DNA of 64,000 bases. It comes from Ricordea florida. Taxonomy: Eukaryota > Cnidaria > Anthozoa > Corallimorpharia > Ricordeidae. Positions 2,790-59,700 of this stretch are shown here, piece after piece. Location: positions 27,906,839 through 27,970,838 of the forward strand of contig OX453281.1 of assembly GCA_949710005.1 (NCBI GenBank), written 5' to 3'. The notes below the pieces were generated by a model, which did no database searches, was not told the origin of the DNA, and saw only the letters and a list, made by a program, of their open reading frames with translations. Both the position numbers and the translations under genes were made by a program. Within the stretch, counting starts at the first letter, position 1; the number at the start of each line of letters is the position of its first letter.

Positions 2790-3285
2790 AGAAAAAGATG
2801 GTCTCCCGAAACTGGAATGTCTTCTCAACTAAGACCCTAGTCTCTGCCAACCGATTAGGATGCCTTGCATGCTGATACATCTGCAAAGACGAAGCCTCTC
2901 TGTTCACATTTTCATTCTGAAAGAGAATATTATCATAAGCAAATAAAGAATACACAACAAAACACAACAATATACAAATGTGCTTCTTTGCATAACAAAT
3001 GCCACTATTGTACATTACTGTTTGGTTTGGTAAAATAAGAGGCTGATTTTTTTTTTACCCAATCAAGCACAGCCAACTCTACTCTCATGTTGTAGGTGTC
3101 ATCCCCATAATGGATCCTCTTTGAAACATAGATGAGCATGGCTGTGTGGAAAGACTCTATCCAGTATGTTTCTCTGCACTGCATATAGAGAAAGGGAAAA
3201 GTGATTAATTAAATATTCAATACTGACAAGCTACATCACTACATTTGTAATGTGCCTTCCCTAAATGATATTTTGGCAGAAAAAA
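2790..3285. mobile_element. ~490-bp insertion in the helicase domain
   Basis: The helicase alignment stops after LPVTHMLEK and resumes at LSGQAL. The intervening DNA is unrelated and is flanked by AGAAAAA on both sides (2790-2796 and about 3278), a possible 7-bp target duplication with two extra A residues at the right copy. It holds two antisense exons (next entry). It could be a non-autonomous element carrying a gene fragment, or a gene fragment captured by the Helitron. Confidence 0.55.
2797..3178 (-). pseudogene. captured two-exon gene fragment (antisense in Helitron)
   Basis: On the minus strand an exon at 3178-3059 is bounded by a TATATGCAG acceptor and a GTAAAA donor. A second exon begins at 2916 after TTCTCTTTCAG and runs to the edge of the insertion. 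Both are phase 0 and open. The joined frame contains YWIESFH, KRIHYGDD, ELAVLDW then NENVNREASS, continuous and protein-like. It resembles a motif I associate with cnidarian hypothetical ORFs, but I cannot name the family. It is truncated on both sides, so not a functional gene here. Confidence 0.5.
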
Positions 3286-4517
3286 ATTGTGCTTATCAGG
3301 TCAAGCATTGATAACAATACAGGAAAGACTGACACAAGTAGATTATATAATTATAGATGAATATTCTATGCTTGGTCAAGCATCTCTAGGGTGGATTGAT
3401 AGACGATGCAGACAGGCAACTGGTCTGCATGAAGTACTGTTTGGTGGAAAGTCTGTTATTTTCTTAGGAGATCCTGCTCAATTACCTCCAGTGGGAGATA
3501 AGCCTTTATACCATTCTAAACCAGCAAGCGAAATTGCAGAACTGGGCTATTGTGCCTATCAAATGTTTGATAAAGTTGTAATTCTGAAAGTAAATCAAAG
3601 AGTGCTTGGGTCAGAACTTGATCAAGTATTATTCAAACAATTGTTGACAAGGTTAAGGAATGGTGAGACTACAGAACATGATTGGAAACAGTTGTTAGCA
3701 AGACAACCTTCACAAGTTGAAAATATTAAATGCTTTGAAGATGTAACACGATTATATTACAGCAACGATGAGGTAGCAAAATATAATTACTATCGTTTGC
3801 TAGAACTAAAACAACCTACAGCAGAAATATTTGCTAAACATTCTAGTGCTGAGGGAAAGAACATCAGTGCCCAACAGATGCTTGGTTTGCAACCAAAACT
3901 ACTCGTGGCAAAGGGTGCAAGAGTCATGCTTACAATGAACCTCTGGCCATCAGTTGGTCTTTGCAATGGTTCAACAGGATCAGTTGCAGATATTATCTAC
4001 GAGCCCAATACACAGCCTCCATCATTGCCTCTTGCAGTTATAGTTAAATTTGACTCATTCTCAGGTCCATCTTTTACAGATAATAAGCCTTCATGTGTTC
4101 CTATTCCACCTATAACAGCCACAGTTCAATGTGGCAACGTAGTGCATGAACGGCAACAGCTACCTTTAACACTTGCTTGGGCGTTGACAATTCATAAAAG
4201 TCAGGGTATGACTTTGAATAAAGCTTGGGTTGATATTGGCAAAAAAGAAACCACATTAGGAATTACATATGTTGCCATAAGTAGAGTACGCAACATCTCT
4301 TCATTAGTCATTGAGCCTATGACATTTGAGAGACTACAGAAAATCAAGAATTCAGAATTGTTGAAATATAGGCTGAAAGAAGAACAAAGGCTTAAACAAT
4401 TGTCTGACAAAACAGTTTTAAACTACTCTAAAATTGTTTGATATGACCAAAATGCACTTAGGTTGATTATTGGTTTCTTATGTTTACTATGTTTTACCTC
4501 ACTAGGGTTGCTACAGA

Positions 4518-35336: not shown

Positions 35337-35466
35337 AGTAGTAAAGGGGGTCACTTTGGGACAAATCTAGAGCGCTGATTGGCTGCGAGTTTCGCGCGCA
35401 AATTCAGGAATGTCGTCAAACCGGTTTTGGAACTGGAAAAACCGGTTTTTTCTTGTTGATCTTGTT
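35337..35466. repeat. left terminal inverted repeat
   Basis: Starts AGTAGTAAAGGGGGTCAC. The first 65 bp are identical to the right end and the remainder has scattered differences. Contains two AACCGGTT palindromes. Confidence 0.95.
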
Positions 35467-40090: not shown

Positions 40091-40762
40091 TTATTTATTT
40101 TCTTTGTAAACGATGGTATTTCCTTTTAATACATGAGTTCGAAGGCGCAAAGCATCGGGAGAAGAAGGATGAAGATCGAATAATAGATATCCATAGGGTT
40201 CACTCGTTGCATCTTGAAAACAATCCATCACATAACTCACACGGCCAGGATAAGCTTGTTGTGCTAAATTACGAACACCCACTGCATCTCGTGGATTTTT
40301 AAAAGCCACCACATAATGCGAATTTAATGAAATAGTTCTTGCAAACTTCCCTGGCGGAAATAAATTTTGGGTTAAGTAAATACAAGTCACATCATTATGA
40401 TGAGATCCTCTAGTGAAAAGATCCACCACGCGTTGGTCGTCACTACAGTCGCGCATTAAATCATCCAGTACCAAAATACCAGGTCTTTGATCTTGAGGAA
40501 ATAGAGCATGAATGTTGGAAGGAATACCTTTGTGAAATTGAATCCCTTGCTTCTGCATTGCACGAAAACACGGTTGACTTTCCCCGTAACAGTAAACGAT
40601 GCGCTTAGGTGCTCGATCAAACAACATGTGGGCCTGTTGTAATAGTTGCCTGGTGAAGGTTGTTTTCCCACACTGGCTAGGCCCCGCAATCATCATACTA
40701 CAAGGTGATCGGAATAACGGTTCGTCAAATGTAGCCGTTGACATGATTGAAACACTTTCCAA
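40091..40762 (-). CDS. ATP: FtsK/HerA (A32-like) genome-packaging ATPase
   Basis: 223 aa. Walker A GPSQCGKT (residues 27-34), Walker B ILVLDD (96-101), and a sensor glutamine in IYLTQN (Q132). These features and the size are normal for Polinton/adintovirus packaging ATPases, which pump genomic DNA into preformed capsids. It is directly downstream of protease and capsid genes on the same strand. The stop is embedded in AAATAAATAA, giving a poly(A) signal. Confidence 0.95.
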   Translation of the reverse strand: MESVSIMSTATFDEPLFRSPCSMMIAGPSQCGKTTFTRQLLQQAHMLFDRAPKRIVYCYGESQPCFRAMQKQGIQFHKGIPSNIHALFPQDQRPGILVLDDLMRDCSDDQRVVDLFTRGSHHNDVTCIYLTQNLFPPGKFARTISLNSHYVVAFKNPRDAVGVRNLAQQAYPGRVSYVMDCFQDATSEPYGYLLFDLHPSSPDALRLRTHVLKGNTIVYKENK

Positions 40763-40798: not shown

Positions 40799-41365
40799 TT
40801 ATTTTCTACAACGACGATTGTTACAACATTGTTTTCTTGATAGGTTACATTGGTTACAATCCTGACTCATATCACATATGCTTCTATATCTCTTGCGCCG
40901 AACAGCTAAATGATGCTTAACGAAAGCTTCCACATAAACATCGTTGGCTTGTTTGTTGTTCGGGGTGAAGGATTGTTCAATGGCTCTCAAACTCTTTCCT
41001 CTTGCTCGAAAATACAAATAATATAGACAATAATATCCACATGCGAATGAATTGAGGGATTGCAGAGATTCCTTATTTCGTATGCTCCTTTTCTTGCCTT
41101 TCTTCAAATAGTTGGTAAAACGGGTAGAATAAAATGAAGGTGGAAAACCATAACTATCAAAGAACTCACTGTTCTTCTTATCTGGAAAATACATGGCTAT
41201 CCAGTGCTCTCCTGGTTTACTGGACGGGTCCGTGTTGGCAATAAGAGAGGCCGGATAAGTAGGTATTCTACGAGGCAGTCGATTACTCGGAAAAACTCCC
41301 AAAAAAGTGGGAGCAATACAGGGGTCATTCATACTCAATGTCCTTAACTTGCCCGTGTACAGCAT
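40799..41365 (-). CDS. PRO: adenain-like cysteine protease (maturation protease)
   Basis: 188 aa. Catalytic pattern of the adenovirus protease family: His54 (GEHWIAMYF), acidic residue in EFFDSYG (E67 or D70), Gln102 seven residues before Cys109 (ACGYYCLYYL). It would process capsid and core precursors during maturation. Starts two nt after the capsid gene stop, so the genes look co-transcribed. The Cys-rich tail is unusual. Confidence 0.93.
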   Translation of the reverse strand: MLYTGKLRTLSMNDPCIAPTFLGVFPSNRLPRRIPTYPASLIANTDPSSKPGEHWIAMYFPDKKNSEFFDSYGFPPSFYSTRFTNYLKKGKKRSIRNKESLQSLNSFACGYYCLYYLYFRARGKSLRAIEQSFTPNNKQANDVYVEAFVKHHLAVRRKRYRSICDMSQDCNQCNLSRKQCCNNRRCRK

Positions 41366-41367
41366 GA

Positions 41368-42717
41368 TTATGCCAGGTTGTAGGTTACGTTCTTGTTACC
41401 GTCAACTTCCATCACATCCACATACTCAGCATACACAACCATAGTAAGTACCGTGGTGGTAGCATTTTCAAACAGTCCACTAATGTTGACTTGACCTTTA
41501 TATTCTGGATGCAGGTGAGCTGCGCCACCGCTCCCGTCTGGTGTTAAATCCCACATGAACAGCGCAAAGCCATCCGCCCAATTGTTTCTACTTATTTGCA
41601 GTCCTTTACCGCGATGCATGTGGCCGCTCCCCAACAGCAGTGAATTGTAACCGTTTACATGACCTTCATCACTTAGTTCTATTGGAGCATAAGGATATTC
41701 CTCTCCATTCACAAGCAGCTTTAACATCTTTAGGCCGAACAACTGAAAATTGAACGGGTTTCTGTCTTTGCTTCCCACATAGGCATCATTCCTGACAAAA
41801 CCGACCACAATACGCCTGGGTATTTTATTCAAGAACAGATCAGTTTTCTGGAAACTGGACTGACCACTGGCAATATTGTAGGTTTGTACATCTCCTCTTT
41901 CCAAGCTGTACAGGGCTGGCTGTGCAGGTTTTTTATCCATGTGTCCCAACATGATTCTGATATGTTTCAGTCGCACACTATCACTCACTTTCACATAACG
42001 TATCACAAACTGACAATCCAGTACTTGCACTTTCTCGGTTCCAGCAACTGACATGAGAGAGAATGCTTCATTGTGTAGATCAATGCGAATATTGAAATTC
42101 ACATTATTCACCAGGTACTTGTCGGACTGGAACAATGCATGAGCTGGGGTTCCTTGCATTTGTACAACGCTACTCCCATCAATAAACAGCTGGCGTAACT
42201 TTAAGTTGGGTACTCCAGCTCCTACACTTCCACCTGTTGTTTCAGTTGCATCAAATTTTCCTGTTTGATCAATATACCACAACACACAAGTCATGTAAGA
42301 TTGAGCAGCATCTTGATCGTAACCCAACAGATTTTGTATATACGCCTTATAAGCGTAAGTGTCATTCTGTTGAGTAACCAGGGTGTTGTTGAGTTTGATG
42401 GAAAATTGTTTGATGAGACTGTGCATCCAGTTGTTGATAGGGATACATTTCTTATCGGCTAAAGCACTGGTTCCATCGGCTTGCATTACTCTCACTTTCA
42501 TCTTCAAGTAACATTTGGAAAGGTCAATGTAGTCACTGTTTGTTTCAATGTTGAACTCGATTGGACTGCCACGTTGAATTCTCGATTCCGGGTAATACGA
42601 TTGCCATCGCCCGCTCAGTACACTCGTATCGGTAGGGGGTAATTGAAATATTTCCAAAGCAGAATTTCCACCTCGTACTGAGGCATAATGTTTTGGACTC
42701 TGCTCCAATTCCGTCAT
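41368..42717 (-). CDS. MCP: major capsid protein (double jelly-roll type)
   Basis: 449 aa, matching the usual size of Polinton major capsid proteins (similar to the C. elegans F54H12.2-like family). Recognisable words: ISRNNWADGFALFMWDL, QGTPAHALFQSDKY, NNTLVTQQNDTYAYKAYIQ. Predicted to form the hexon-like capsomers. It has VRGG at residues 14-17, a possible protease site. Hydrophilic, no signal peptide. Confidence 0.93.
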   Translation of the reverse strand: MTELEQSPKHYASVRGGNSALEIFQLPPTDTSVLSGRWQSYYPESRIQRGSPIEFNIETNSDYIDLSKCYLKMKVRVMQADGTSALADKKCIPINNWMHSLIKQFSIKLNNTLVTQQNDTYAYKAYIQNLLGYDQDAAQSYMTCVLWYIDQTGKFDATETTGGSVGAGVPNLKLRQLFIDGSSVVQMQGTPAHALFQSDKYLVNNVNFNIRIDLHNEAFSLMSVAGTEKVQVLDCQFVIRYVKVSDSVRLKHIRIMLGHMDKKPAQPALYSLERGDVQTYNIASGQSSFQKTDLFLNKIPRRIVVGFVRNDAYVGSKDRNPFNFQLFGLKMLKLLVNGEEYPYAPIELSDEGHVNGYNSLLLGSGHMHRGKGLQISRNNWADGFALFMWDLTPDGSGGAAHLHPEYKGQVNISGLFENATTTVLTMVVYAEYVDVMEVDGNKNVTYNLA

Positions 42718-47558: not shown

Positions 47559-47572
47559 TCTTTCTTTATTTA
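47559..47572 (-). terminator. poly(A) signal overlapping the integrase stop
   Basis: GTGTAAATAAAG on the minus strand: the stop TAA and AATAAA overlap. Confidence 0.65.
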
Positions 47573-48724
47573 CACATCCTTCACGTAACTGGCAGGAATC
47601 CATTGATCATATTTACTTGGCCAACCTCGCCATTTTACTAAATATTCCTTTCTACGCCCAGAACCGCGAGTATCAAGAATCTTCTCTATTTTGAAAAAGT
47701 CACTTTCCTTGCTTTGCACGCGTTCCAGTTCAGGTTCGTAAAACATCCCCTTTAACATTGTACCGTCATATTCCTTTAGTCTATAAGTGGGAACTGTGGT
47801 ACGGTTACGCCTGGCTATGGTAAAAACTTCTTCTGTCCAATTGGGTGTATAACCCTTGGCAAAAACACCTTGTGCTTTAGCAATTCGTACTTGATCACCC
47901 ACCTTGAACTTGTAGCGCATTTTTTCTACTCGTTTCACAAAATCATCTCCATACAAATAGTTCCATATCTCTTGAGCATTTTCCTGAGTTACACGATCGG
48001 GTGCTGTACCGATACTACGATGCGTAGAACTATTATAACTTTTCACCAGGTTATCTAACACATCCAGATAACGATAATGATTCGCTTCAGTGAAATATCG
48101 CCACATGCGTGTCTTTATGGTTCTATTAAAACGCTCCACAATCTGAGCCTTTGTATCGCTGTATGTAACAAAATGTTGCACATGTTTAGATTCCAAAAAC
48201 TTTTGAAACTGACGGTTTGTGAATTCACTTCCTTTATCCGTTTGTAAACGCTCTGGTACACGCCCATCTTCTTTAAATATGTGCTCAAAAGCATCCACCA
48301 AACTTTTTCCCGTTTTGTCCTTCAAAGGTACAACCCATGCATACTTTGAAAGAACATCAATAACCGTTAAAAGATAACGAAATCCATCATTTTCCCCTTT
48401 CAATGCTTGTACATCCACAAGATCTGCTTGCCACTGTTCATCCATGCCATTAACCACTACTCTACTCCGTTTAAACTGTTTCCGCACAGGCTTGTGTAAG
48501 GTATACGGAACCTGTGATTCGAGCCATTTCCTCGATATCGATGGCTTGATTCCTTTTACGCGTGCGGTACCAACCAATCGCTTTGCGCCAACAAATGCAG
48601 CAGGTTTTCCTGGTGTGTAGTATAACCTTTCTAACATGGGTATGGCCTGTCGTTCCGTCTTCCATTTCTTCTGTTTCCGCCGCATCTTCATACTCTTCTT
48701 GGTCATCAACAATCTCGATGACAA
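47570..48724 (-). CDS. INT: retroviral-like integrase with C-terminal chromodomain
   Basis: 384 aa. rve core with D101 (QADLVD), D163 (QTDKGSEF) and E198 (VERFNRT), D-x61-D-x34-E spacing. C-terminal chromodomain (FFKIEKILDTR, YLVKWRGWPSKYDQWIP). It inserts the linear element with a short target duplication; the chromodomain probably guides target choice. The first ~29 residues are Lys-rich and overlap a different-frame ORF, so the true start may be Met30 (MLERLYYTP), where family similarity begins. Confidence 0.95.
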   Translation of the reverse strand: MSSRLLMTKKSMKMRRKQKKWKTERQAIPMLERLYYTPGKPAAFVGAKRLVGTARVKGIKPSISRKWLESQVPYTLHKPVRKQFKRSRVVVNGMDEQWQADLVDVQALKGENDGFRYLLTVIDVLSKYAWVVPLKDKTGKSLVDAFEHIFKEDGRVPERLQTDKGSEFTNRQFQKFLESKHVQHFVTYSDTKAQIVERFNRTIKTRMWRYFTEANHYRYLDVLDNLVKSYNSSTHRSIGTAPDRVTQENAQEIWNYLYGDDFVKRVEKMRYKFKVGDQVRIAKAQGVFAKGYTPNWTEEVFTIARRNRTTVPTYRLKEYDGTMLKGMFYEPELERVQSKESDFFKIEKILDTRGSGRRKEYLVKWRGWPSKYDQWIPASYVKDV

Positions 48725-49444: not shown

Positions 49445-52400
49445 TCAATACCCGTAGGGTAATGTGTCATACTCGTCTATGATTACACGCTTGTCATATA
49501 CAAGCTTATATCTCTTGTCTTGTGCTTGAGTAACCACTTGTTTGCTCTTCGTGTTACGCATGATCTTGTGAGGATTGTGAACTGTAACGGGTTCACATTG
49601 TTCACTTCGTACCATGTCCACCATACTGTGAAAGTTCACTTTTTCTGCAGTTCGCACATTTAAGGTGAATCCACGAACCTTGCATACAACTTTTCCCTTG
49701 TATGTTTTATAAGCATAATTTTTGGGGCCAGCTGATACAAATGTTACAATATGATCGTCACTGTCCAGCTCGTTGGTGAGTTCCCCCAAGTAATCACCCA
49801 GTACAGGTTCCCATTGATCTTCTTCTGAGATATATATGATACTGTCTGTATCATAATAACAGACTCTCTCACCCAGCTTTGCCATGACACGATATAATTT
49901 CATTCTTGCCTGAGCTGTGGTGAATGCAGCTAACACCACATTTGTTCTGTCAGAAGCTTCCACGAAATCATTCTCTTGAGTATAGCAAACTTCCACCATT
50001 TCATCAGCAACAAGATGGACATCTTTTATACTCACACTGGCACTCGTAAACAGCTCAAAGTAACGCTTTACATCGTTGATCACTTCTAGCTTAGGTCTGT
50101 TTGGACGCTGCCCAAGCTTTCCCCACATATTATTCAAGATTTGTTTCCAGACGCTTCTTGCCCCTGCATTATGTTGAATGTGTTCTCTTTCCAAGCGAAT
50201 TCCCTCATGCTCATAATATTCTTCAATATATCTCGTTTTATCATCATCAGTTTCACACCAGCTAGGCCAACCTGAGGCTTCTTGTTTTTTCTTTAAGAAC
50301 ATGTTGATGTACTCTTTAAACAGAGTTTGGCTCTTTTGTTCGAAATGCCATACCTCATGTAACCGAACAACACGATAACCCATTTCACGAGCTAACTCCA
50401 GTTCTAAGCTCACCCATGTTCCGGTAAATGTTCTCTCTTCATCTGTGTGTTGACAGGGTGTTTTCTGTAATGCTTCAGCGCAGGTGCGACACAGTGCAAA
50501 CATAAGCTTGTTATTGCTCTTGAAGGGTAGTACTGGGTGATACAATCCCCGGGGTGCGAGAACATCACATTTGATGATTCCAAAATACTGACTGATTTCT
50601 GTAGGATCTAAATTGTCCGTGATTATTCTGGGATGCCCTATGGGATACAACCCGTTCTTGTTAATATCAGGATACAAACTCGTAAAGTCCACATAATTCA
50701 TCTTCTTATCCTCAACAAGCAGCTTTGTAGCATTTGTTCTACCCCCGTAGAATGCATCTCGTGGATTCAGAGGCGAAACAAACTGTAATCTATCCACGAA
50801 TGTTTTCACTTCCTTATCCTCTTTCAGCATCTTTCGCCACTGACATTCCCACATCTCCACCACTTCAATTCCTTGTTTCTTTAGATAATCTGTTCTTTCC
50901 AGTGTGTGCTGATAAAGTTCATACATGGAACACTGATTTATGGGGTTTATAGTAGTACCGGGAAAACACCTCATACAACCGTGATAAAAACAACCATGAA
51001 ATTCGTAGGCTGTATGAGTGGTTTCACAGTATCCATCCAACAAGTAAGAACCCACTCTCTTCTCTCCCTCGTTTCTACCATGACGAATGAAAACATTGTC
51101 CTTTTGTGACATATGAGCAAGCCATTGATACGCACAGTGTGATTGATTTGCTTTCTTTCTGTAGCCAAGATGAGGAATAATTGCGATAGTTTTCTCTTTA
51201 AGAAACATAGAACGAAAAATTAAATTACATAACGATGCTATAGTCATGCTTTCTTTAAAAGGGTGGATATGGCACAACCCTTTCACGGTGTTGATAAAAT
51301 GACAGCAACATCGACGCAGAATGTCCACATCTGAACGACAATAACTCACGAGTTCCTCTTGCATGCGAAATTCCACTTTCTTTGCTTCTTGTTCTTTATG
51401 CCAGTTAAGGAATGCTTTACGCACATCTGGTTTCATACCTTCAGGATCATAGTACTCAACAGCAGGAATGGGTCCCACATAGTACTGGTTTTCTTCTGTG
51501 TTGAAAAAATGGGGAAAATATCCTTTCTTCAATTCTTGTAAACCAAATGTTTTGGGTAACTTTGCAAGGGCCATAGGAAAAAAATTTAAACTGTCAATGA
51601 AACGTATCCCCACATCTGGAACTCGCATCTCCATGATCTTAGCTCCATTCATGATAAGAGTTGGTTTGATATTGTTCTTGTACAAGTAATCCAAAATAAA
51701 GTAGGAGTCATATCCTTTGAAATTATGTGCAATACAAGTTGATCCTGGCATCTCGTCAAATAACCATTCACAAAAAGCTTTACATGTTTTAAAGATCCAT
51801 TCCTTTCCATGTTGATCCTGCACTACCACAAGGTTAGGTACATGTTTGCCTGTGTTCTGTGTACACTCAAAATCGAAAAACAAATACAAATCCTCTTCAT
51901 CATCCCCTCTTTTTCTCTTTTTCTTCTGTTTCGGTACTTGCATGTAGCACTGATGATCTTTTTCAACAAACTTGTTGCAAACATGGCACATCAATTCCCC
52001 ACATTTATGTAATCTTGTATCCCGTTGAGTTCGATCTAACATCTTACCACAATCTTTACATTTCAGATACTGTTTGCAAACAGAAATTCCCCCTTGTGGG
52101 CCCATTCTACGATGATTCTCGAAACAACCAGGACCTTGAAACGACCTTTTACAATAAGCACAATATATCCATGATGATATATCCCCAGAGCATCCTTCTT
52201 GAAAACAAGATAAGCACTTCTTCTTGCACCGATGATGTCTTCCCTCTTCGGTGTTATAACCCTTTTCGCATTCTAAACAATAATAAATGCGCCCCATGAA
52301 TCCAGGCATGGATGTAATCAAATCAAAGTGACCATCATGTAAATATAAGTAAATGACTTTTTCCTTGGTAGGACCCTTGTAAATAACACTGTTAAACTGC

Positions 52401-53185
52401 TCTGCACTAACAATGACTAATTGGTACTCTGGCAAGATGGCTTGAAATTTCTTCGCTTCTTCAATACCACATGCTTGTAAAGGAACGCCCGCTCGTTCAT
52501 GTAAACTTAAAGCTCTTTCTCGTTGAATAGGTCTTCCCTTGTGAATTATGTCGTATTGCGGATCTTTCTCTAGTCTGGCGATTCCCACTACGATAGCTCT
52601 TGCCATACATAATTCATCTTTATTCCTGATACGAATAAAACATTTCTTCTCCTTTAATCGTTTTCCCATGTTAATCACTTTCTTTCTACCACCCCCAGTA
52701 GGAAGAGCAACATGTACTAGATTCACATCAAATCTTTGATTCGCATACAAATCCTCATATGATTGCAGGACTCTTTCCACCTCAAACATTACTCTCTGTG
52801 CTGTAAAATGTTCCACAGGCATGAAAGGTAAACTGATCGGAGAGGTTAATTCTCGTGTTTGCATAACAAATCGAACTTGATCTCGTGCATTCATTCCTCG
52901 TGTCATGTCAGTGATAGCACTTTCCAGCACACCATTTAAGTTACTTGTTCCTTCTCGAACGGATCTTGCTTCGGGAATATCGATGGTTAAGTGATAATCA
53001 ACCCCAGTTGTATTGAATTTCGGGATGTTACGTCTATTCTGTTCCTTTAGAGTATATTGCCCTCTTTCTTCTTCTCTCTTCCTTTTACCTCCAACTTGTT
53101 CACTAAAAGATATAAGTATAATAGTTCTTTTAGAAATCGAACATGTCCCACTCAAAAGCACCCGGTTGAACAACCCAATCATCAT
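49445..53185 (-). CDS. POLB: protein-primed-type family B DNA polymerase
   Basis: About 1,215-1,246 aa. A Cys/His-rich zinc-binding region (about 303-413) precedes the 3'-5' exonuclease motifs FFDFECT (D438/E440), HNFKGYD (D493) and YCRSD (D619). Polymerase motifs follow: A YVDFTSLYPD (D833), B KQILNNMWGKLGQ (about 1014) and C YYDTDS (D1112/D1114). An insert with VGSYLLDGYC and AYEFHGCFYHGC (711-737) resembles the VSR-like endonuclease segment seen in Polinton polymerases. It replicates the element from its termini. The first ~30 residues lie across the end of the upstream ORF and follow a TATCTTTTAG acceptor-like site, so the true N terminus may be spliced. Confidence 0.95.
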   Translation of the reverse strand: MMIGLFNRVLLSGTCSISKRTIILISFSEQVGGKRKREEERGQYTLKEQNRRNIPKFNTTGVDYHLTIDIPEARSVREGTSNLNGVLESAITDMTRGMNARDQVRFVMQTRELTSPISLPFMPVEHFTAQRVMFEVERVLQSYEDLYANQRFDVNLVHVALPTGGGRKKVINMGKRLKEKKCFIRIRNKDELCMARAIVVGIARLEKDPQYDIIHKGRPIQRERALSLHERAGVPLQACGIEEAKKFQAILPEYQLVIVSAEQFNSVIYKGPTKEKVIYLYLHDGHFDLITSMPGFMGRIYYCLECEKGYNTEEGRHHRCKKKCLSCFQEGCSGDISSWIYCAYCKRSFQGPGCFENHRRMGPQGGISVCKQYLKCKDCGKMLDRTQRDTRLHKCGELMCHVCNKFVEKDHQCYMQVPKQKKKRKRGDDEEDLYLFFDFECTQNTGKHVPNLVVVQDQHGKEWIFKTCKAFCEWLFDEMPGSTCIAHNFKGYDSYFILDYLYKNNIKPTLIMNGAKIMEMRVPDVGIRFIDSLNFFPMALAKLPKTFGLQELKKGYFPHFFNTEENQYYVGPIPAVEYYDPEGMKPDVRKAFLNWHKEQEAKKVEFRMQEELVSYCRSDVDILRRCCCHFINTVKGLCHIHPFKESMTIASLCNLIFRSMFLKEKTIAIIPHLGYRKKANQSHCAYQWLAHMSQKDNVFIRHGRNEGEKRVGSYLLDGYCETTHTAYEFHGCFYHGCMRCFPGTTINPINQCSMYELYQHTLERTDYLKKQGIEVVEMWECQWRKMLKEDKEVKTFVDRLQFVSPLNPRDAFYGGRTNATKLLVEDKKMNYVDFTSLYPDINKNGLYPIGHPRIITDNLDPTEISQYFGIIKCDVLAPRGLYHPVLPFKSNNKLMFALCRTCAEALQKTPCQHTDEERTFTGTWVSLELELAREMGYRVVRLHEVWHFEQKSQTLFKEYINMFLKKKQEASGWPSWCETDDDKTRYIEEYYEHEGIRLEREHIQHNAGARSVWKQILNNMWGKLGQRPNRPKLEVINDVKRYFELFTSASVSIKDVHLVADEMVEVCYTQENDFVEASDRTNVVLAAFTTAQARMKLYRVMAKLGERVCYYDTDSIIYISEEDQWEPVLGDYLGELTNELDSDDHIVTFVSAGPKNYAYKTYKGKVVCKVRGFTLNVRTAEKVNFHSMVDMVRSEQCEPVTVHNPHKIMRNTKSKQVVTQAQDKRYKLVYDKRVIIDEYDTLPYGY

Positions 53186-53979: not shown

Positions 53980-53987
53980 TATATAAG
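53980..53987. promoter_or_regulatory. TATA box (TATATAAG) between divergent units
   Basis: Lies between the minus-strand PolB-side ORF and the + strand RING array unit. Its palindromic TATATA core could serve both directions. Confidence 0.6.
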
Positions 53988-54093: not shown

Positions 54094-54867
54094 ATGCCCA
54101 AACGAAAGATGCAAACCCGTGCATTTCGTGCTAAGAGGCGCCTCAACTTTGATGAACCAGGTGAATCATCTACAACATCTAATGACCACCCTTCATTGAA
54201 TGTTGTGGATGAAACTGTGCCAACAACGCCCGTTGAGGATGCAGCAACAGCAGCACCGCCTGAGGATTCATCTGAGAATCAATCTTCCCCACCTGAGAAT
54301 GATTCATCCACACCAACTCCACCTCCCACACCTGACGAAGATGATAATCGATCCTACACCACTGAGGAGGGAGAGGATACTAATGATAGTGAGCTGGCTA
54401 CTAACGAAACCTTGGGAGCTTCTGGTAGCAGCAACAATGCCAATGATGCAAATGTTGAGCCGCAACGAGAGATCCCAAGAGATCCACCAGTCCATGGACC
54501 TTGCCTGGTATGTTTTGAAGGACACGAGTCCCCACCTACACCGTGTTGCAGAAAACCCCTGTGTGACCGTTGTTTACATCAGTGGTTGGATAGCCGCCGA
54601 TTTGACTGCCCACATTGTAGGAAGCAGTTTCCTTCAACCTATATCATGGTATCGGAACAGGCTACCGATGCTTTGTTGGCTGACCCTGAATTTCAGCGCA
54701 GGATTCGCTTGGTAAGACTAAGATTAAGACAAGTAAGAAGAAGAGCAAATATAACCCTTTCTATTTCTATGATATGTGCTTTTCTTGTACTGAGTATCAC
54801 ACTGTACTACTTATACCGGTACATAAGCAATTTAGAATCTCGTTTAAACAACTTAGAATATCGTTAG
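54094..54867 (+). CDS. membrane-anchored RING-finger protein (candidate E3 ligase)
   Basis: 257 aa. Basic nuclear-signal-like start (KRKMQTRAFRAKRRL), then a long Ser/Pro/Glu-rich disordered region. A RING-type finger follows at 137-175 (CLVC, CCRKPLCDRC, CPHC), then an Arg-rich helix and a transmembrane segment at about 220-242. The usual RING His is not obvious, so it is a RING variant. RING proteins transfer ubiquitin. Polintons do not normally carry one, so an accessory or host-interaction role is likely. Three phase-0 donors (54508, 54712, 54733) lie in the frame. Use of the latter two would keep the RING and replace the transmembrane tail by one of the downstream cassettes. Confidence 0.85.
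   Translation: MPKRKMQTRAFRAKRRLNFDEPGESSTTSNDHPSLNVVDETVPTTPVEDAATAAPPEDSSENQSSPPENDSSTPTPPPTPDEDDNRSYTTEEGEDTNDSELATNETLGASGSSNNANDANVEPQREIPRDPPVHGPCLVCFEGHESPPTPCCRKPLCDRCLHQWLDSRRFDCPHCRKQFPSTYIMVSEQATDALLADPEFQRRIRLVRLRLRQVRRRANITLSISMICAFLVLSITLYYLYRYISNLESRLNNLEYR
54508..54513 (+). promoter_or_regulatory. candidate 5' splice site CTG|GTATGT, phase 0
   Basis: Would cut after residue 138, inside the RING, giving a RING-less leader. Confidence 0.35.
54712..54738 (+). promoter_or_regulatory. two candidate 5' splice sites GTAAGA, both phase 0
   Basis: GTAAGA at 54712 (after residue 206) and at 54733 (after residue 213). Both keep the RING and remove the transmembrane tail. Their phase matches every downstream cassette acceptor. 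Confidence 0.5.
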
Positions 54868-54899
54868 TGATGAAACTTTTTTTCCATCTTCTTTTATAG

Positions 54900-55085
54900 A
54901 CTCATAACGAACTTGTTCTTTATCTAATGGATAAACAGCAAAGATATGTAGCATCTTCATTTATTGAACGCGTAACTCTAAATCTATTACAAAAGGCAAT
55001 ATGTATAGGCATGGATTGTTGGTTTGCCTGCAAACCCCTTCAGTATTATGAAAGAAAAGTTCTTTTTGATTCACTCTGCTTTTAA
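54900..55085 (+). CDS. terminal-exon cassette U1 (61 aa)
   Basis: Acceptor CCATCTTCTTTTATAG. Helical, with two Cys-containing aromatic words (IGMDCWFACK). Stop TAA, then TTTTTGTTATAG for U2. Confidence 0.6.
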   Translation, partial: THNELVLYLMDKQQRYVASSFIERVTLNLLQKAICIGMDCWFACKPLQYYERKVLFDSLCF

Positions 55086-55097
55086 TTTTTGTTATAG

Positions 55098-55301
55098 GCA
55101 CTGGTTAAACTAAAAGCAACCAAATCTACCCTTAAATATAGAGTGTTACTACAAAACAGATCTGTTTCCGATCCTTATAGATTTTTTTATAACTATTACA
55201 TGATACGAGAACTATTAGAGAGTGCTACTCATGAAGATGCTGTTATAACACCAGCTTTTATAAAAGAAGTTATAGATATATTGTGGATGCTTCGTTGTTG
55301 A
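55098..55301 (+). CDS. terminal-exon cassette U2 (67 aa)
   Basis: Acceptor TTTTTGTTATAG. Contains YRFFYNYYMIRELLES and IKEVIDILWMLR, a two-helix pattern resembling later cassettes. Confidence 0.6.
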   Translation, partial: ALVKLKATKSTLKYRVLLQNRSVSDPYRFFYNYYMIRELLESATHEDAVITPAFIKEVIDILWMLRC

Positions 55302-55318
55302 TTTTTTTTTTGACCGAC

Positions 55319-55422
55319 GTGAGGTTAGGGGTGGCTGTGAGGGGAGGATGGAGGCCACAGTGTAAATATTTAAGTTTTTTTGTGAGGTTAGGGGTGGCTG
55401 TAAGGGGAGGATGGAGGCCACA
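55319..55422. repeat. 41-bp direct repeat between U2 and U3
   Basis: GTGAGGTTAGGGGTGGCTGT then RAGGGGAGGATGGAGGCCACA occurs at 55319-55359 and 55382-55422. G-rich on the + strand and not coding in the cassette frame. Confidence 0.85.
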
Positions 55423-55504
55423 CAAAAAAACATAATTATTTTTTGTTTAAAAAACAATTCAGCATCCACAACTTATTTTTCTTTTTTTATTTATCTCTCT
55501 TTAG

Positions 55505-55609
55505 GTTCTACTTGATATTCACGATTATCAAATTCCTGTGAATACAGTGATAAGTACAAAAATCTATGGACATCAATATAAGATTGTTCACATTTACAAA
55601 AGGAAATAA
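55505..55609 (+). CDS. terminal-exon cassette U3 (34 aa)
   Basis: Acceptor TTATTTATCTCTCTTTAG, a strong tract. Short frame ending HIYKRK, stop TAA. Confidence 0.5.
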   Translation, partial: VLLDIHDYQIPVNTVISTKIYGHQYKIVHIYKRK

Positions 55610-55624
55610 CTTTATATCTTCCAG

Positions 55625-55810
55625 ATGTATCCAGAATTACGATATAGCAGCTCGGAAATGATAATTGAAAAATCATTTGTGATGTTTCGCGATCTAAAGG
55701 AACTTAATTTTTCGACTTTAAACATTCATAAAGAGCTTGTAATAAATTTTTTATTTGAAACAGTTAAGAAGCCTTCTTTCTTTCTACTTAGAGAGCACAA
55801 TCTCTTATAA
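55625..55810 (+). CDS. terminal-exon cassette U4 (61 aa)
   Basis: Acceptor CTTTATATCTTCCAG. The first codon happens to be ATG. Contains VMFRDLKELNFSTLN and VINFLFETVKK. Confidence 0.55.
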   Translation: MYPELRYSSSEMIIEKSFVMFRDLKELNFSTLNIHKELVINFLFETVKKPSFFLLREHNLL

Positions 55811-55825
55811 TTTTTCTCTTTTCAG

Positions 55826-56116
55826 CTTTTGGATGGTGTACATCGTTTTACTCTAAACATTCAATCGCATCATTTCAGAAGATACTTACGATCAATGGGC
55901 ATGAGTTTAATTCATCTTTTCGAATCAGTTGTTTTGCAACCAAGAGCAAGAACTTATTCTGAAGCTATTGACAACATTGATTCTCACTGTGATAGATTTC
56001 ATTATCACCACGATGTTACTTGTTTTTGTCAAATAGCTAAAAACTTGCTTTGTATCATGGCAATAGATCCTCATTTATTTTTGTTTCACGATGATGATCA
56101 ACCGTTAGATGATTGA
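55826..56116 (+). CDS. terminal-exon cassette U5 (96 aa, largest)
   Basis: Acceptor TTTTTCTCTTTTCAG. His- and Cys-containing helices (CDRFHYHHDVTCFCQ) and an acidic end (FHDDDQPLDD). Confidence 0.65.
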   Translation, partial: LLDGVHRFTLNIQSHHFRRYLRSMGMSLIHLFESVVLQPRARTYSEAIDNIDSHCDRFHYHHDVTCFCQIAKNLLCIMAIDPHLFLFHDDDQPLDD

Positions 56117-56137
56117 TTCTTTTTTCATCTTTTCCAG

Positions 56138-56323
56138 TTGACACAATCCATTGATAGTTGCTACAATTTCCTTAGTGATAGATGCTATACAATACTGGAA
56201 GGATATCCTGATCGCCATGATTTATTTCACATGTTTGATTCATTACGCGCAAGAGATAAGATATTTCAGTGTAGAACTATAGTCAACAGTTTACGATATG
56301 AACATGACTATTCTCATTTGTAG
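56138..56323 (+). CDS. terminal-exon cassette U6 (61 aa)
   Basis: Acceptor TTCATCTTTTCCAG. Starts with the DSCYNFL version of the D-x-C-x-x-[FY]-[LV] motif shared by U6, U7, U9 and, in part, U10 and U11. Confidence 0.65.
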   Translation: MTQSIDSCYNFLSDRCYTILEGYPDRHDLFHMFDSLRARDKIFQCRTIVNSLRYEHDYSHL

Positions 56324-56345
56324 TTCTATCGTATTTTCTCTTTAG

Positions 56346-56522
56346 GTAACAGAATCTATGGATACCTGTTCCTCTTATCTTTTGTTTGATATGTTACCAA
56401 GAACAGTGCGCGATGATGATAAAGATTTAATTGTGAATGTTCATAATTACTTAACACAGTGTATTTCACAACTTCATTATGTTATGCCCCCTTCACCTTA
56501 TGACATCCTATGGGATGATTAA
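56346..56522 (+). CDS. terminal-exon cassette U7 (58 aa)
   Basis: Acceptor GTATTTTCTCTTTAG. DTCSSYL motif, then an acidic middle (VRDDDKDLIVNVHNYL) and an end MPPSPYDILWDD. Confidence 0.65.
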   Translation, partial: VTESMDTCSSYLLFDMLPRTVRDDDKDLIVNVHNYLTQCISQLHYVMPPSPYDILWDD

Positions 56523-56552
56523 TTTTCTTTTTTCTTTTTTTTTACAAAACAG

Positions 56553-56675
56553 ATCATGAATGAACTTATCGAACTCACTAACTACATTGCATGCGAATAC
56601 TCGATCTCCTCAAGTTCACCTCTAATACAAGATTTAGATTGGGTTTATGTGAGCATTTGTCCTTTTTATTCGTAG
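56553..56675 (+). CDS. terminal-exon cassette U8 (40 aa)
   Basis: Acceptor TTTTTTTACAAAACAG. ELTNYIACEY resembles the shared motif. The stop TAG (56673-56675) is also the AG acceptor of U9. A TAT|GTGAGC donor-like site precedes it. Confidence 0.5.
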   Translation: MMNELIELTNYIACEYSISSSSPLIQDLDWVYVSICPFYS

Positions 56676-56828
56676 ATTTATGGACTGTTTGATGAGTGCT
56701 CCGCTTATGTTATAAACAAACGCGATCAAGCAGTAACACAAATGATGAAGGATTGTGCAGATGCATTACATAATGAACTTGTGTTCATTCAGAGTAGAAT
56801 TGGATGGTGTTATAATATAACCTTATAA
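56676..56828 (+). CDS. terminal-exon cassette U9 (50 aa)
   Basis: Acceptor TCCTTTTTATTCGTAG. DECSAYV motif and an amphipathic helix (MMKDCADALHNEL). Confidence 0.6.
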   Translation: MYGLFDECSAYVINKRDQAVTQMMKDCADALHNELVFIQSRIGWCYNITL

Positions 56829-56845
56829 CTTTTCTTTCTCCATAG

Positions 56846-56995
56846 ATATTCTCTAAGACTAGAGAATGTACAAATTTTCTGTACCGTCGATATGCAACTC
56901 ATTTTCCATATGCAGATCTACCTGTGATAGAACACATTTGTGACGATCTGAGAGTTGTAAGGCGCGGCTTAAGAAGATTAATTGTTTCTCGATAG
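56846..56995 (+). CDS. terminal-exon cassette U10 (49 aa)
   Basis: Acceptor TTTTCTTTCTCCATAG. Clear paralogue of U11: RECTNFLYRRY, then LPVIEHICDDL and RRGLRRL. The stop TAG doubles as the U11 acceptor. Confidence 0.65.
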   Translation: MFSKTRECTNFLYRRYATHFPYADLPVIEHICDDLRVVRRGLRRLIVSR

Positions 56996-57169
56996 ATTCA
57001 AAGAGAGAACAAGGCATGTGCAAGATTCTTATGTGACCGATATGGATCCAATTACCTAAAGCAATCAGATATACCGTTAATAGAGCATGTTGTTGATGAT
57101 CTAGCTGTTATGAGACACATGTTAAAACGATTACAAAGAGCACATTTTTTTGTTACCTCTTTTTACTAG
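56996..57169 (+). CDS. terminal-exon cassette U11 (57 aa)
   Basis: Acceptor TTGTTTCTCGATAG, weaker tract. KACARFLCDRY, IPLIEHVVDDL and RHMLKRL align with U10 over about 42 residues. Stop TAG doubles as the U12 acceptor. Confidence 0.65.
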   Translation: MQRENKACARFLCDRYGSNYLKQSDIPLIEHVVDDLAVMRHMLKRLQRAHFFVTSFY

Positions 57170-57331
57170 ATATATGCAAAGATTCAAGCAAGCATATGGT
57201 TTGTTCAGGTTCAAACGCGTAAACAACACCCAAGGATGTGTTTAGTAGAGTTGCCCTTACGAAAACATATAACCGACGATTTTGATTTTCAACTGCACTT
57301 GTTAAGAGGAATTATAAAACGATTCAGATAG
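57170..57331 (+). CDS. terminal-exon cassette U12 (53 aa)
   Basis: Acceptor TTACCTCTTTTTACTAG. CLVELPLRKHITDDF and LLRGIIKRF align with the C-terminal half of U10/U11. Confidence 0.6.
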   Translation: MYAKIQASIWFVQVQTRKQHPRMCLVELPLRKHITDDFDFQLHLLRGIIKRFR

Positions 57332-57346
57332 TTTCTTTTTTTTCAG

Positions 57347-57427
57347 CCCAAGCTCGAGGAAGAAAGAAGACGTTACTTACAATTTCACCATAACTTGTTG
57401 ATAAGCCTTGTAAGACAGTATAGATAA
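57347..57427 (+). CDS. terminal-exon cassette U13 (26 aa, shortest)
   Basis: Acceptor TTTCTTTTTTTTCAG. KLEEERRRYLQFHHNLL. A phase-0 GTAAGA occurs eight codons before the stop, so this unit might also act as an internal exon. Confidence 0.45.
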   Translation, partial: PKLEEERRRYLQFHHNLLISLVRQYR

Positions 57428-57444
57428 TTTTTTTCTTTTTTCAG

Positions 57445-57609
57445 AAAACATATCCCAGAGAAACAAGCCTAAAAGCTGCACTACTGTTCTTTTCTTACAG
57501 ATATTTGTTAAGATACAAGATATCTATAGTTCCGCCAGAGAAGGATTTCATAGTTCAACACTTTATGACTCAAATAGTTCTGTCAATGGTATACAACACT
57601 AGAAAATAG
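57445..57609 (+). CDS. terminal-exon cassette U14 (54 aa)
   Basis: Acceptor TTTTTCTTTTTTCAG. Helical, LFFSYRYLLRY and DFIVQHFMTQIVLSM. Confidence 0.6.
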   Translation, partial: KTYPRETSLKAALLFFSYRYLLRYKISIVPPEKDFIVQHFMTQIVLSMVYNTRK

Positions 57610-57651
57610 GAAAGCATAGATAGCTTTTTTTTCTTTTTTCCTTTGTATTAG

Positions 57652-57846
57652 GATGAAGATAGTGAAGATAGTGAGGATAGCGGAAAGCTCTGTCAATGTG
57701 AAGAGTGTAATAAAGATGTTGATCGTTATAGTTATTGCGGTTGTGATTGCGACTATTGTTCCAATATGACTGATGTATTAAGTTTCTGTGATTGTAAAGG
57801 TTGTGCTGGCATTTTCTGGCAGTTCAAGATTTTATCCTTACAGTAG
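57652..57846 (+). CDS. terminal-exon cassette U15, acidic Cys-rich (64 aa)
   Basis: Acceptor TTTCCTTTGTATTAG. DEDSEDSEDS start, then twelve Cys in pairs (CQCEEC, CGCDCDYC, CDCKGC), a likely metal-binding module quite unlike U6-U14. Confidence 0.65.
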   Translation, partial: DEDSEDSEDSGKLCQCEECNKDVDRYSYCGCDCDYCSNMTDVLSFCDCKGCAGIFWQFKILSLQ

Positions 57847-57865
57847 AACATTTCTTTTTTCTTAG

Positions 57866-57982
57866 GGTCAATACCAGGGAGATGATAGAGATTATCGTCA
57901 TTTATATCAACAAATTACTCATCTCCCAGACTATCTGATTTTCTTTGAACAAATGACTTTATCTTCATCAATATCACCTTAA
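57866..57982 (+). CDS. terminal-exon cassette U16 (38 aa)
   Basis: Acceptor ATTTCTTTTTTCTTAG. No phase-0 GT at all, so it can only be terminal. Confidence 0.5.
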   Translation, partial: GQYQGDDRDYRHLYQQITHLPDYLIFFEQMTLSSSISP

Positions 57983-58011
57983 GTGATACTAGGTTATCTT
58001 TTTTCTCTTAG

Positions 58012-58182
58012 GCTACAGGTGATGAGGATAATGACATTGTAAGATTCTTTCATCAAGATAGTGAAGGCAATTTTATTCAATATATTCCTCAAGATGAAAG
58101 AGTGCGAACTGAAATTGAAGATTATATTACAACACATGGTTTTGTTAATCAACCCGTTATTTGTTTTGTAGGGAACAAATGA
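58012..58182 (+). CDS. terminal-exon cassette U17 (56 aa)
   Basis: Acceptor TTATCTTTTTTCTCTTAG. Acidic (GDEDNDIV, QDERVRTEIEDY). Its end overlaps U18. Confidence 0.55.
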   Translation, partial: ATGDEDNDIVRFFHQDSEGNFIQYIPQDERVRTEIEDYITTHGFVNQPVICFVGNK

Positions 58183-58300
58183 TTTCCACGCTTTTCCATG
58201 GGTTGATGCCCATAATCAAACCGTTATTCTTTATTATCCTGAACTGCCAGTTGCGTTTCAACCAAACATATATAAGCTTTATCTTTGCACTTTGTTGTAA
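58172..58300 (+). CDS. terminal-exon cassette U18 (42 aa)
   Basis: Acceptor TTATTTGTTTTGTAG lies inside the U17 frame, so the two cassettes overlap by 11 nt in different frames. Aromatic-rich. Confidence 0.5.
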   Translation, partial: GTNDFHAFPWVDAHNQTVILYYPELPVAFQPNIYKLYLCTLL

Positions 58301-58368
58301 AATTATGTTATTCTCATTAAACAACAAGTTACCAAAAGATGGGATTTGTGTGTTTTTTTATTACTTAG

Positions 58369-58590
58369 GATGAACCCAATAACAGTGATGATGATGATGA
58401 TGATGATGAGAACTCTAGACCTGATAATTATCCCTATAACTGGTTACCTTATCATAGTGATGATGATCATTATTGGGATTCTTCTAATGAAGATGATTAT
58501 ACTGCAATAAGTGATGAAGATTGGGAAGTTGAATTATCCCCTGAACAAATAACCAACTGGGAAAGCATTCTGAGTATTCACCCACCCTAA
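58369..58590 (+). CDS. terminal-exon cassette U19, acidic (73 aa)
   Basis: Acceptor TTTTTTTATTACTTAG. Seven-Asp run and many further Asp/Glu/Trp/Tyr residues, ending in a Pro-Pro. Followed by the array's AATAAA at 58592. Confidence 0.65.
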   Translation, partial: DEPNNSDDDDDDDENSRPDNYPYNWLPYHSDDDHYWDSSNEDDYTAISDEDWEVELSPEQITNWESILSIHPP

Positions 58591-58591
58591 T

Positions 58592-58597
58592 AATAAA
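58592..58597 (+). terminator. shared poly(A) signal AATAAA
   Basis: Two nt after the U19 stop. No earlier AATAAA was noticed between cassettes. Confidence 0.65.
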
Positions 58598-59570: not shown

Positions 59571-59700
59571 AACAAGTTCAACCAGAAAAAACCGGTTTTT
59601 CCAGTTCGCAAACCGGTTTGACGACATTCCTCAAATTGCGCGCGAAACTCGCAGCCAATCAGCGCTCTAGATTTGTCCCAAAGTGACCCCCTTTACTACT
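59571..59700. repeat. right terminal inverted repeat
   Basis: Reverse complement of the left repeat. Ends CTTTACTACT and also has two AACCGGTT palindromes. Confidence 0.95.

Follow-up and report, generated by a model that had tools for sequence, protein, structure and literature searches.

Related Systems with Alternative Exons

The Drosophila genes lola and mod(mdg4) belong to the host itself and encode a BTB domain, and lola combines a common 5′ part with many alternative 3′ exons. In the adenovirus major late unit the leaders are untranslated and each open reading frame (ORF) has its own ATG; the alternative exons of Dscam are internal and mutually exclusive, and RNA structure controls the choice among them. 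For mod(mdg4), PMC12692577 describes a common N-terminal exon with alternative 3′ exons and more than 30 isoforms, which arise by trans-splicing with the 3′ exons under independent promoters. The locus analyzed here lies at positions 54094-58597 of a 64,000-nt stretch of Ricordea florida DNA (GCA_949710005.1, contig OX453281.1, 27,906,839-27,970,838 of the forward strand), referred to as the window and used for all coordinates below. It occupies the right end of a 24-kb Polinton-type element and consists of a RING-finger gene followed by nineteen short open cassettes, c01-c19. The locus is very likely one transcription unit with a common 5′ coding exon and about 19 alternative terminal exons, as judged from comparison of its copies within the genome.

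At the DNA level the locus resembles mod(mdg4) and lola in having one common 5′ exon and many alternative 3′ exons. It differs from mod(mdg4) in its residence in a virus-like element, its RING domain, the spacers of 0-68 nt at 17 of the 19 cassettes, the use of some stop codons as acceptors, and the limitation of AATAAA to three places, immediately after the last cassette and within two others. With the adenovirus major late unit it shares a single donor side, many alternative acceptors and the setting of a compact DNA-virus genome, but the leader is coding here and, with six of the 19 cassettes free of methionine, the cassettes do not each bring a start of their own. The likeness to Dscam lies in the tandemly duplicated alternative exons, whose selection may be guided by a conserved RNA structure in the intron, whereas the cassettes of this locus carry stops. 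The host element itself resembles Polintons/Mavericks and adintoviruses (e.g., Rhodactis coral adintovirus) in its terminal inverted repeats, PolB, rve integrase, and C5 protease. No RING-plus-terminal-exon array in Polintons was found described in the open-access literature searched, including excerpts of PMC11071296 and PMC12220804, which agrees with the original prediction for this stretch, whose author knew of no Polinton system of this kind. The arrangement as such is known from mod(mdg4); what would be new here is its occurrence in a virus-like element.

Organization of the Cassette Array

Behind the RING ORF, nineteen units composed of a pyrimidine tract with AG, a frame open in phase 0 and a stop codon are all present as had been predicted, the fourth starting at 55625, and open lengths of 26-96 codons in one phase were borne out for each of the nineteen. 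Nearly all units had been said to lack an ATG at the acceptor, and in fact one of the 19, c04, has an ATG at codon 1, with that of c08 at codon 2. A blind chain search of the array stretch returned 19 units totaling 1040 codons, compared with a mean of 4.9 units, a largest value of 11 and at most 412 codons in 300 dinucleotide shuffles. The reverse complement of the stretch yielded 4 units, and the median-scoring piece of equal size elsewhere in the window 8 small units. Beyond the array region, the highest scores went mostly to long ORFs with 1-3 units. The median open length from the acceptors is 56 codons in phase 0, and 11 and 4 codons in phases 1 and 2. A chance layout was rejected on the basis of the shuffles (19 units against a maximum of 11 in 300).

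All cassettes lie on the plus strand. The array opens with c01 (54900-55085, 61 codons) and c02 (55098-55301, 67 codons) and proceeds through c03 (55505-55609, 34 codons), c04 (55625-55810, 61 codons), c05 (55826-56116, 96 codons), c06 (56138-56323, 61 codons), and c07 (56346-56522, 58 codons). In the middle of the array the TAG stop of one cassette repeatedly serves as the acceptor of the next, which applies to c09 (56676-56828, 50 codons) behind c08 (56553-56675, 40 codons), to c11 (56996-57169, 57 codons) behind c10 (56846-56995, 49 codons), and to c12 (57170-57331, 53 codons) behind c11. The remainder comprises c13 (57347-57427, 26 codons), c14 (57445-57609, 54 codons), c15 (57652-57846, 64 codons), c16 (57866-57982, 38 codons), c17 (58012-58182, 56 codons), c18 (58172-58300, 42 codons), which overlaps c17 by 11 nt, and c19 (58369-58590, 73 codons), whose stop is directly followed by a poly(A) signal AATAAA (58592-58597); the two further AATAAA are located inside c04 (55741) and c15 (57709).

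The encoded tails are of diverse character: c10, c12, and c14 are basic, c15 is acidic and cysteine-rich (10 Cys), and c19 is strongly acidic with a net charge of -24. Single-sequence modeling gave an all-helical c05, and c11 was modeled with low confidence, by its predicted template modeling score, as a helical hairpin. A Pfam scan of ten of the 19 cassettes detected no family above cut-off, and the two Rfam matches, both below cut-off, both fall over c19.

Methionine is absent from c03, c10, c13, c17, c18, and c19, and in six more cassettes the first one appears as late as codons 30-41. ORFs with starts of their own were rejected as a description of the cassettes since these 6 of 19 lack Met. 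The cassettes could still be separate small genes expressed through another leader, either by spliced-leader trans-splicing or by an adenovirus-like untranslated leader, so that the RING exon would stay outside the product; the ATG opening c04, that at codon 2 of c08 and the resemblance of the layout to trans-spliced polycistrons, for which tract, AG, ORF and stop in this order are also typical, speak in its favor. This reading is nevertheless highly improbable in view of the cassettes with absent or late Met, of the single phase across all nineteen, which an untranslated leader would not need, and of the RING donor, which holds the same phase as the cassettes. Still less credence is due to a mod(mdg4)-like scheme in which the cassettes are transcribed separately and joined in trans to the RING exon; the exon anatomy is that of mod(mdg4), where each alternative 3′ exon is driven by a promoter of its own (PMC12692577), but the 0-68 nt spacers of 17 of the 19 cassettes are too short for separate promoters and an AATAAA closes the array.

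In the favored scheme of a common exon with interchangeable terminal exons, the exon carrying the RING (54094-54711) would end at a phase-0 donor and be spliced to one cassette at a time. Each cassette, possessing a phase-0 acceptor and its own stop, would become the tail through skipping of the earlier acceptors, and all transcripts could share the AATAAA at 58592. The unspliced RING frame would continue into a hydrophobic tail and thereby add a twentieth form. Most likely the RING part would recruit a ubiquitin-conjugating enzyme, so that it may act as an active ubiquitin ligase (E3), and the tail would choose the target or the location.

If transcripts confirm this scheme, the locus would rank, as far as we know, among the densest alternative-splicing loci of any virus or transposon, with about 20 proteins encoded in 4.5 kb and almost no inter-exon space. 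A Polinton-type element would then be investing in swappable tails on a ubiquitin-ligase-like protein, which would bear on how such elements cope with many host targets and would offer a compact natural system for studying spliceosome choice among nineteen acceptors. With many copies of differing age in one genome, tail gain, loss, and replacement become directly measurable.

The Common RING Exon and Its Predicted Donor

Copies of the locus were sought throughout the genome (537.8 Mb, 48 contigs), where 107 RING matches were obtained, some of them pieces of one locus. Forty arrays were read, namely the window and 39 stretches of 6.8 kb, with one further close copy and most distant copies lying outside the sample. 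The arrays fall into group A (the window and L009-L028, 21 arrays), group B (L029, L030, L031, L033, and L034, 5 arrays), and group C (L032 and L035-L047, 14 arrays).

The common exon (54094-54711, plus strand) spans 206 codons from its ATG through a low-complexity N-terminus and the RING finger to the end ...DPEFQRRIRL, and a putative TATA-like box (TATATAAG) was recognized by eye upstream at 53980-53987 of the same strand. The RING profile A3 matches solved RING structures in the PDB, the best being 1z6u (E 4.3e-8), with RNF125 and UHRF1 also among them; by this profile the exon is classified as a RING, and a ubiquitin-ligase-like function is predicted. By eye, a Lys takes the place of the usual fourth zinc ligand His. 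On the plus strand the RING ORF is the sole ORF of at least 100 amino acids that enters the donor in the phase of the cassettes; the overlapping ORF 54200-54715 runs in another frame and is out of phase at the donor.

A donor near 54712 or 54733 had been proposed. The two plus-strand GTAAGA words there, the predicted main 5′ splice site TTG/GTAAGA (54712-54717) and a predicted second site CAA/GTAAGA (54733-54738), proved to be in phase 0 relative to the ATG at 54094. Across the three groups, a phase-0 GTAAG directly follows the ...RIRL codons in 39 of the 40 arrays, as TTG/GTAAGA in 21, CTG/GTAAGA in 5, CTT/GTAAGT in 12, and CTC/GTAAGT in 1; in the remaining array, L043, the G is lost. In these 39 arrays GTAAG is unaltered, although the Leu in front of it is encoded by TTG, CTG, CTT, or CTC and the triplet behind Val is AGA in some and AGT in others. 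The second donor is confined to group A, where it stands 21 nt, or in four copies 33 nt, downstream of the first. Of 73 exact PEFQRRIRL coding matches in the whole genome, 72 continue with GT and one with a base that is not G; G with a different second base does not occur.

Without splicing, the RING frame runs on the plus strand through a basic stretch and a hydrophobic, likely membrane, segment to a stop (54712-54867, 'tail 0'). This tail is similar in groups A and B and different in group C. DNA similarity of the window to the group C copies L035 and L040 stops at 54716, the final base of GTAAG, and that to the group B copy L034 extends across the hydrophobic tail and reaches c01 and c02 (67%). 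Variable sites of the hydrophobic tail are distributed 19/8/16 over codon positions 1/2/3 in 16 copies, which alone is no proof of selection on the protein.

Conservation of and Selection on the Cassettes

Acceptors and stops were compared in 18 group A copies for all 19 cassettes, with L016 (deletion) and L018 (run of N) excluded. The acceptor AG is conserved in 341 of 342 cells, compared with 8701 of 9720 (89.5%) for control dinucleotides in spacers and tracts, a control that includes indel-rich tracts, the spacer mismatch rate of 4.3% alone leaving about 92%. The stop codon is conserved in 336 of the 342 aligned cells. In the whole of group A, 376 of 399 copy-by-cassette cells are open with an identity above 65%; the 23 missing cells belong to L016 (15, deletion), L018 (6, unread), c15 of L025, and c19 of L028.

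The group A cassettes evolve in the manner of protein-coding sequence. The ratio of nonsynonymous to synonymous substitution rates (dN/dS) is 0.32 overall and lies between 0.12 and 0.57 for each of the 19 cassettes, with variable sites at codon positions 1/2/3 numbering 168/118/264. For cassettes at least 70% identical to the reference copy, dN/dS amounts to 0.39 in group C and 0.37 in group B. Indels per kb and pair in group A number 1.56 in cassettes and 2.43 in the RING exon, whereas spacers have 18.6 and acceptor tracts 22.0, and those in multiples of three make up 43/89 in cassettes, 27/27 in the RING exon, 11/101 in spacers, and 12/113 in tracts.

A decayed or accidental layout devoid of function has a negligible probability. 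Single copies are indeed damaged, as L016 has lost c02-c16 together with the G-rich element described below, retaining the RING, c01, and c17-c19, and c06 of L023 is shortened to 28 codons; the shuffles, dN/dS, acceptor conservation, and indel patterns nonetheless contradict decay of the array as a whole.

Relatives of c01, c02, and several other cassettes occur in groups B and C, mostly at 30-65% identity, and in 88 of the 116 cross-group matches the alignment keeps the register set by the acceptor codon. Of the 28 off-register matches, 23 concern c15 and c19, which have relatives that begin earlier or later, and the other five concern c06 and c11, for which the chain search took another AG. 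Within the array, profile comparison identified c06, c10, and c11 as paralogues aligned from residue 1, with E 8e-18 over 47 columns for c10-c11 and E 3e-9 and 8e-8 over 20-24 columns for the pairs with c06; c07 matches this family more weakly. The count of c06/c10/c11-type units varies among group C copies (L040 and L043 versus L038), a difference best read as recent tandem duplication of terminal exons. Paralogy and varying unit numbers together suggest that cassettes are gained by duplication and lost again, with the exon boundary unchanged. Cassettes would thus be born by tandem duplication and lost or replaced between element lineages, in the manner of a repertoire under selection. In L046, c02 and the later cassettes are found about 4.4 kb farther downstream than in its kin, probably owing to an insertion within the array.

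Taken together, the conserved donor and acceptors, dN/dS, the indel pattern, and the register argue that the locus is most likely an alternative-terminal-exon system. The original prediction had the RING leader spliced to any one cassette, and what this implies for donor, acceptors, frames, and register is supported across the 40 arrays; its proposed mechanism is very probably right, as far as DNA comparison can tell.

Contrary Observations and Possible Chaining of Cassettes

Several observations weigh against this interpretation. A search of the genome for spliced retrocopies, in which the RING end is joined to sequence other than the donor, retrieved one donor-lost copy only. In a simple, approximate donor score applied to 214 GTs of the region, the top value belongs to GT 54161, inside the RING exon and in phase 1. 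GT 54508, in phase 0 and ahead of most of the RING, ranks below one of the two favored donors and above the other, its score lying between those of 54733 and 54712; it is a GT in 40/40 arrays and a GTAAG in 0/40. The Pfam RING scores are under the curated cut-off, and c05 has no PDB match (best E 5.0). Three small cassette sets, one in group C and two in group B, have a dN/dS above 1, and 46 of the 89 cassette indels are not multiples of three, a number in which real frameshifts and edge effects are unsorted. Finally, an in-phase GTAAG is kept in c10, c13, and c17 in 20/20, 19/20, and 17/20 group A copies, respectively.

The last observation is the basis for combinatorial chaining, in which some cassettes would be internal exons using their own donors and the tails would be strings of cassettes. 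The words in question, GTAAG at 56957 (c10) and GTAAGA at 57410 (c13) and 58039 (c17), are all in phase 0 and mostly conserved in group A, that of c10 is also kept in L033 and L034 of group B despite a change of the codon after Val from Arg to Ser, and in 9 of 20 group A copies a GTGAGC at 56649 stands in phase within c08. With these words some chaining is possible for the four cassettes concerned, and c10, c13, and c17 may double as internal exons. As an account of the locus, however, chaining is improbable, given the conservation of the cassette stops noted above and the scores of the other in-cassette, in-phase GTs among the 25 best of the 214, which are -1 or lower except for the first codon of c07; moreover, GTA AGR may just encode a conserved Val-Arg.

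The G-Rich Element in the c02-c03 Spacer

The spacer between c02 and c03 contains two copies of a 40-nt G-rich noncoding element on the plus strand, at 55319-55358 and 55382-55421, the second within A/T-rich inverted arms. The element is found in 39 of the 40 arrays, L016 having lost it by the deletion, and the copies listed from all three groups differ from the second copy of the window at 0-2 of 40 bases, a near-invariance that contrasts with only about 67% identity of the RING-coding DNA between groups. At least 128 genome matches to its first 29 bases were obtained with up to 2 mismatches, and those compared by eye lie mostly shortly downstream of RING matches. Rfam gave no match to the element.

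Two compensatory pairs were detected in the inner hairpin among 12 distinct copies, together with two unpaired cells, all of these being small numbers. From group to group the arms on either side have changed in sequence and kept their complementarity; the 3′ arm coincides in group B with the pyrimidine tract of the next cassette, and in group C it ends about 20 nt upstream of the next acceptor AG. In the window, the complete c02-c03 spacer shows no better folding than shuffled sequence (z 0.43), and when the element is folded with flanks of 30 nt, the outer arms pair in the best structure and the inner hairpin is not formed.

It is proposed that the G-rich element may steer acceptor choice. 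A fuller interpretation, held here tentatively and with doubt slightly outweighing belief, is that the virus-like element maintains an evolvable ubiquitin-ligase repertoire, in which the RING exon would be joined to any of about 20 duplicating, diverging, and lineage-replaced tails, the choice being steered by a near-invariant intronic G-rich RNA hairpin whose outer arm is the tract of the next acceptor (group B) or lies just upstream of it (group C).

The Surrounding Element and Its Relatives

The 24-kb element is bounded by a left terminal inverted repeat of 130 nt (35337-35466, plus strand), which is 95% complementary to its right partner (59571-59700, minus strand). By eye, ACCCC flanks the element on both sides, a candidate target site duplication of 5 bp, or of 6 (TACCCC) with one base shared. 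The minus strand encodes PolB (49445-53185; PF03175, E 3.7e-47), which is the divergent neighbor of the RING gene, an rve integrase with a chromodomain (47570-48724; rve E 6.8e-17), an adenovirus-type C5 protease (40799-41365; PF00770 above cut-off), and a P-loop ATPase, a candidate packaging ATPase, with weak, sub-threshold AAA and Pox_A32 matches (40091-40762). The 449-amino-acid ORF at 41368-42717 has no Pfam match and no PDB sequence match; from its position we take it to be a candidate for the double jelly-roll major capsid protein. The inverted repeats, PolB, chromodomain integrase, and adenovirus-type protease together identify the element, by prediction, as a Polinton or adintovirus. 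Its PolB is 52% identical to a Rhodactis coral adintovirus record over 87% of the part searched, and the named close PolB relatives include those of Dendronephthya, Paramuricea, and Rhodactis coral adintovirus, which points to an anthozoan host. P0002 and P0003 reach 71% and 67% PolB identity, respectively, over the region searched.

The pairing of RING gene and PolB recurs across the genome. The PolB set comes from scoring 37 of 1709 candidates and contains one PolB split over two rows. For 37 of the 38 PolB rows, with 77 of the 107 RING rows used, a divergently oriented RING match is located at a distance of 0.7-1.8 kb. Four distant RING matches (G000:C4:13740476, C7:11549454, C3:27796753, and C16:19633965) stand in frames of 332-427 amino acids, one of them with an internal stop, and might be fused or host-adopted genes.

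In the viral contig collection no relative was found with the RING, the 449-amino-acid ORF, P0001 (see below), PolB alignment A2, and RING alignment A3 as protein queries and with one DNA pattern. The RING query retrieved one protein from the protein database, P0001, and profile A3 matched P0001 and P0122 among the 7992 candidates with the most words in common. Neither protein represents a RING exon spliced to a tail. By eye, P0001 is a member of group C, either of this genome or of a closely related one. P0122, a diverged RING relative, is 130 amino acids long and comes from a contig of 175,859 bases (ENA); its frame ends with ...DPEFQRRIRAV, at about the donor position, and some of its zinc ligands are substituted, as seen by eye. 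At the left end of the window, positions 4-4441 contain Helitron-like helicase ORFs, a candidate name given by eye.

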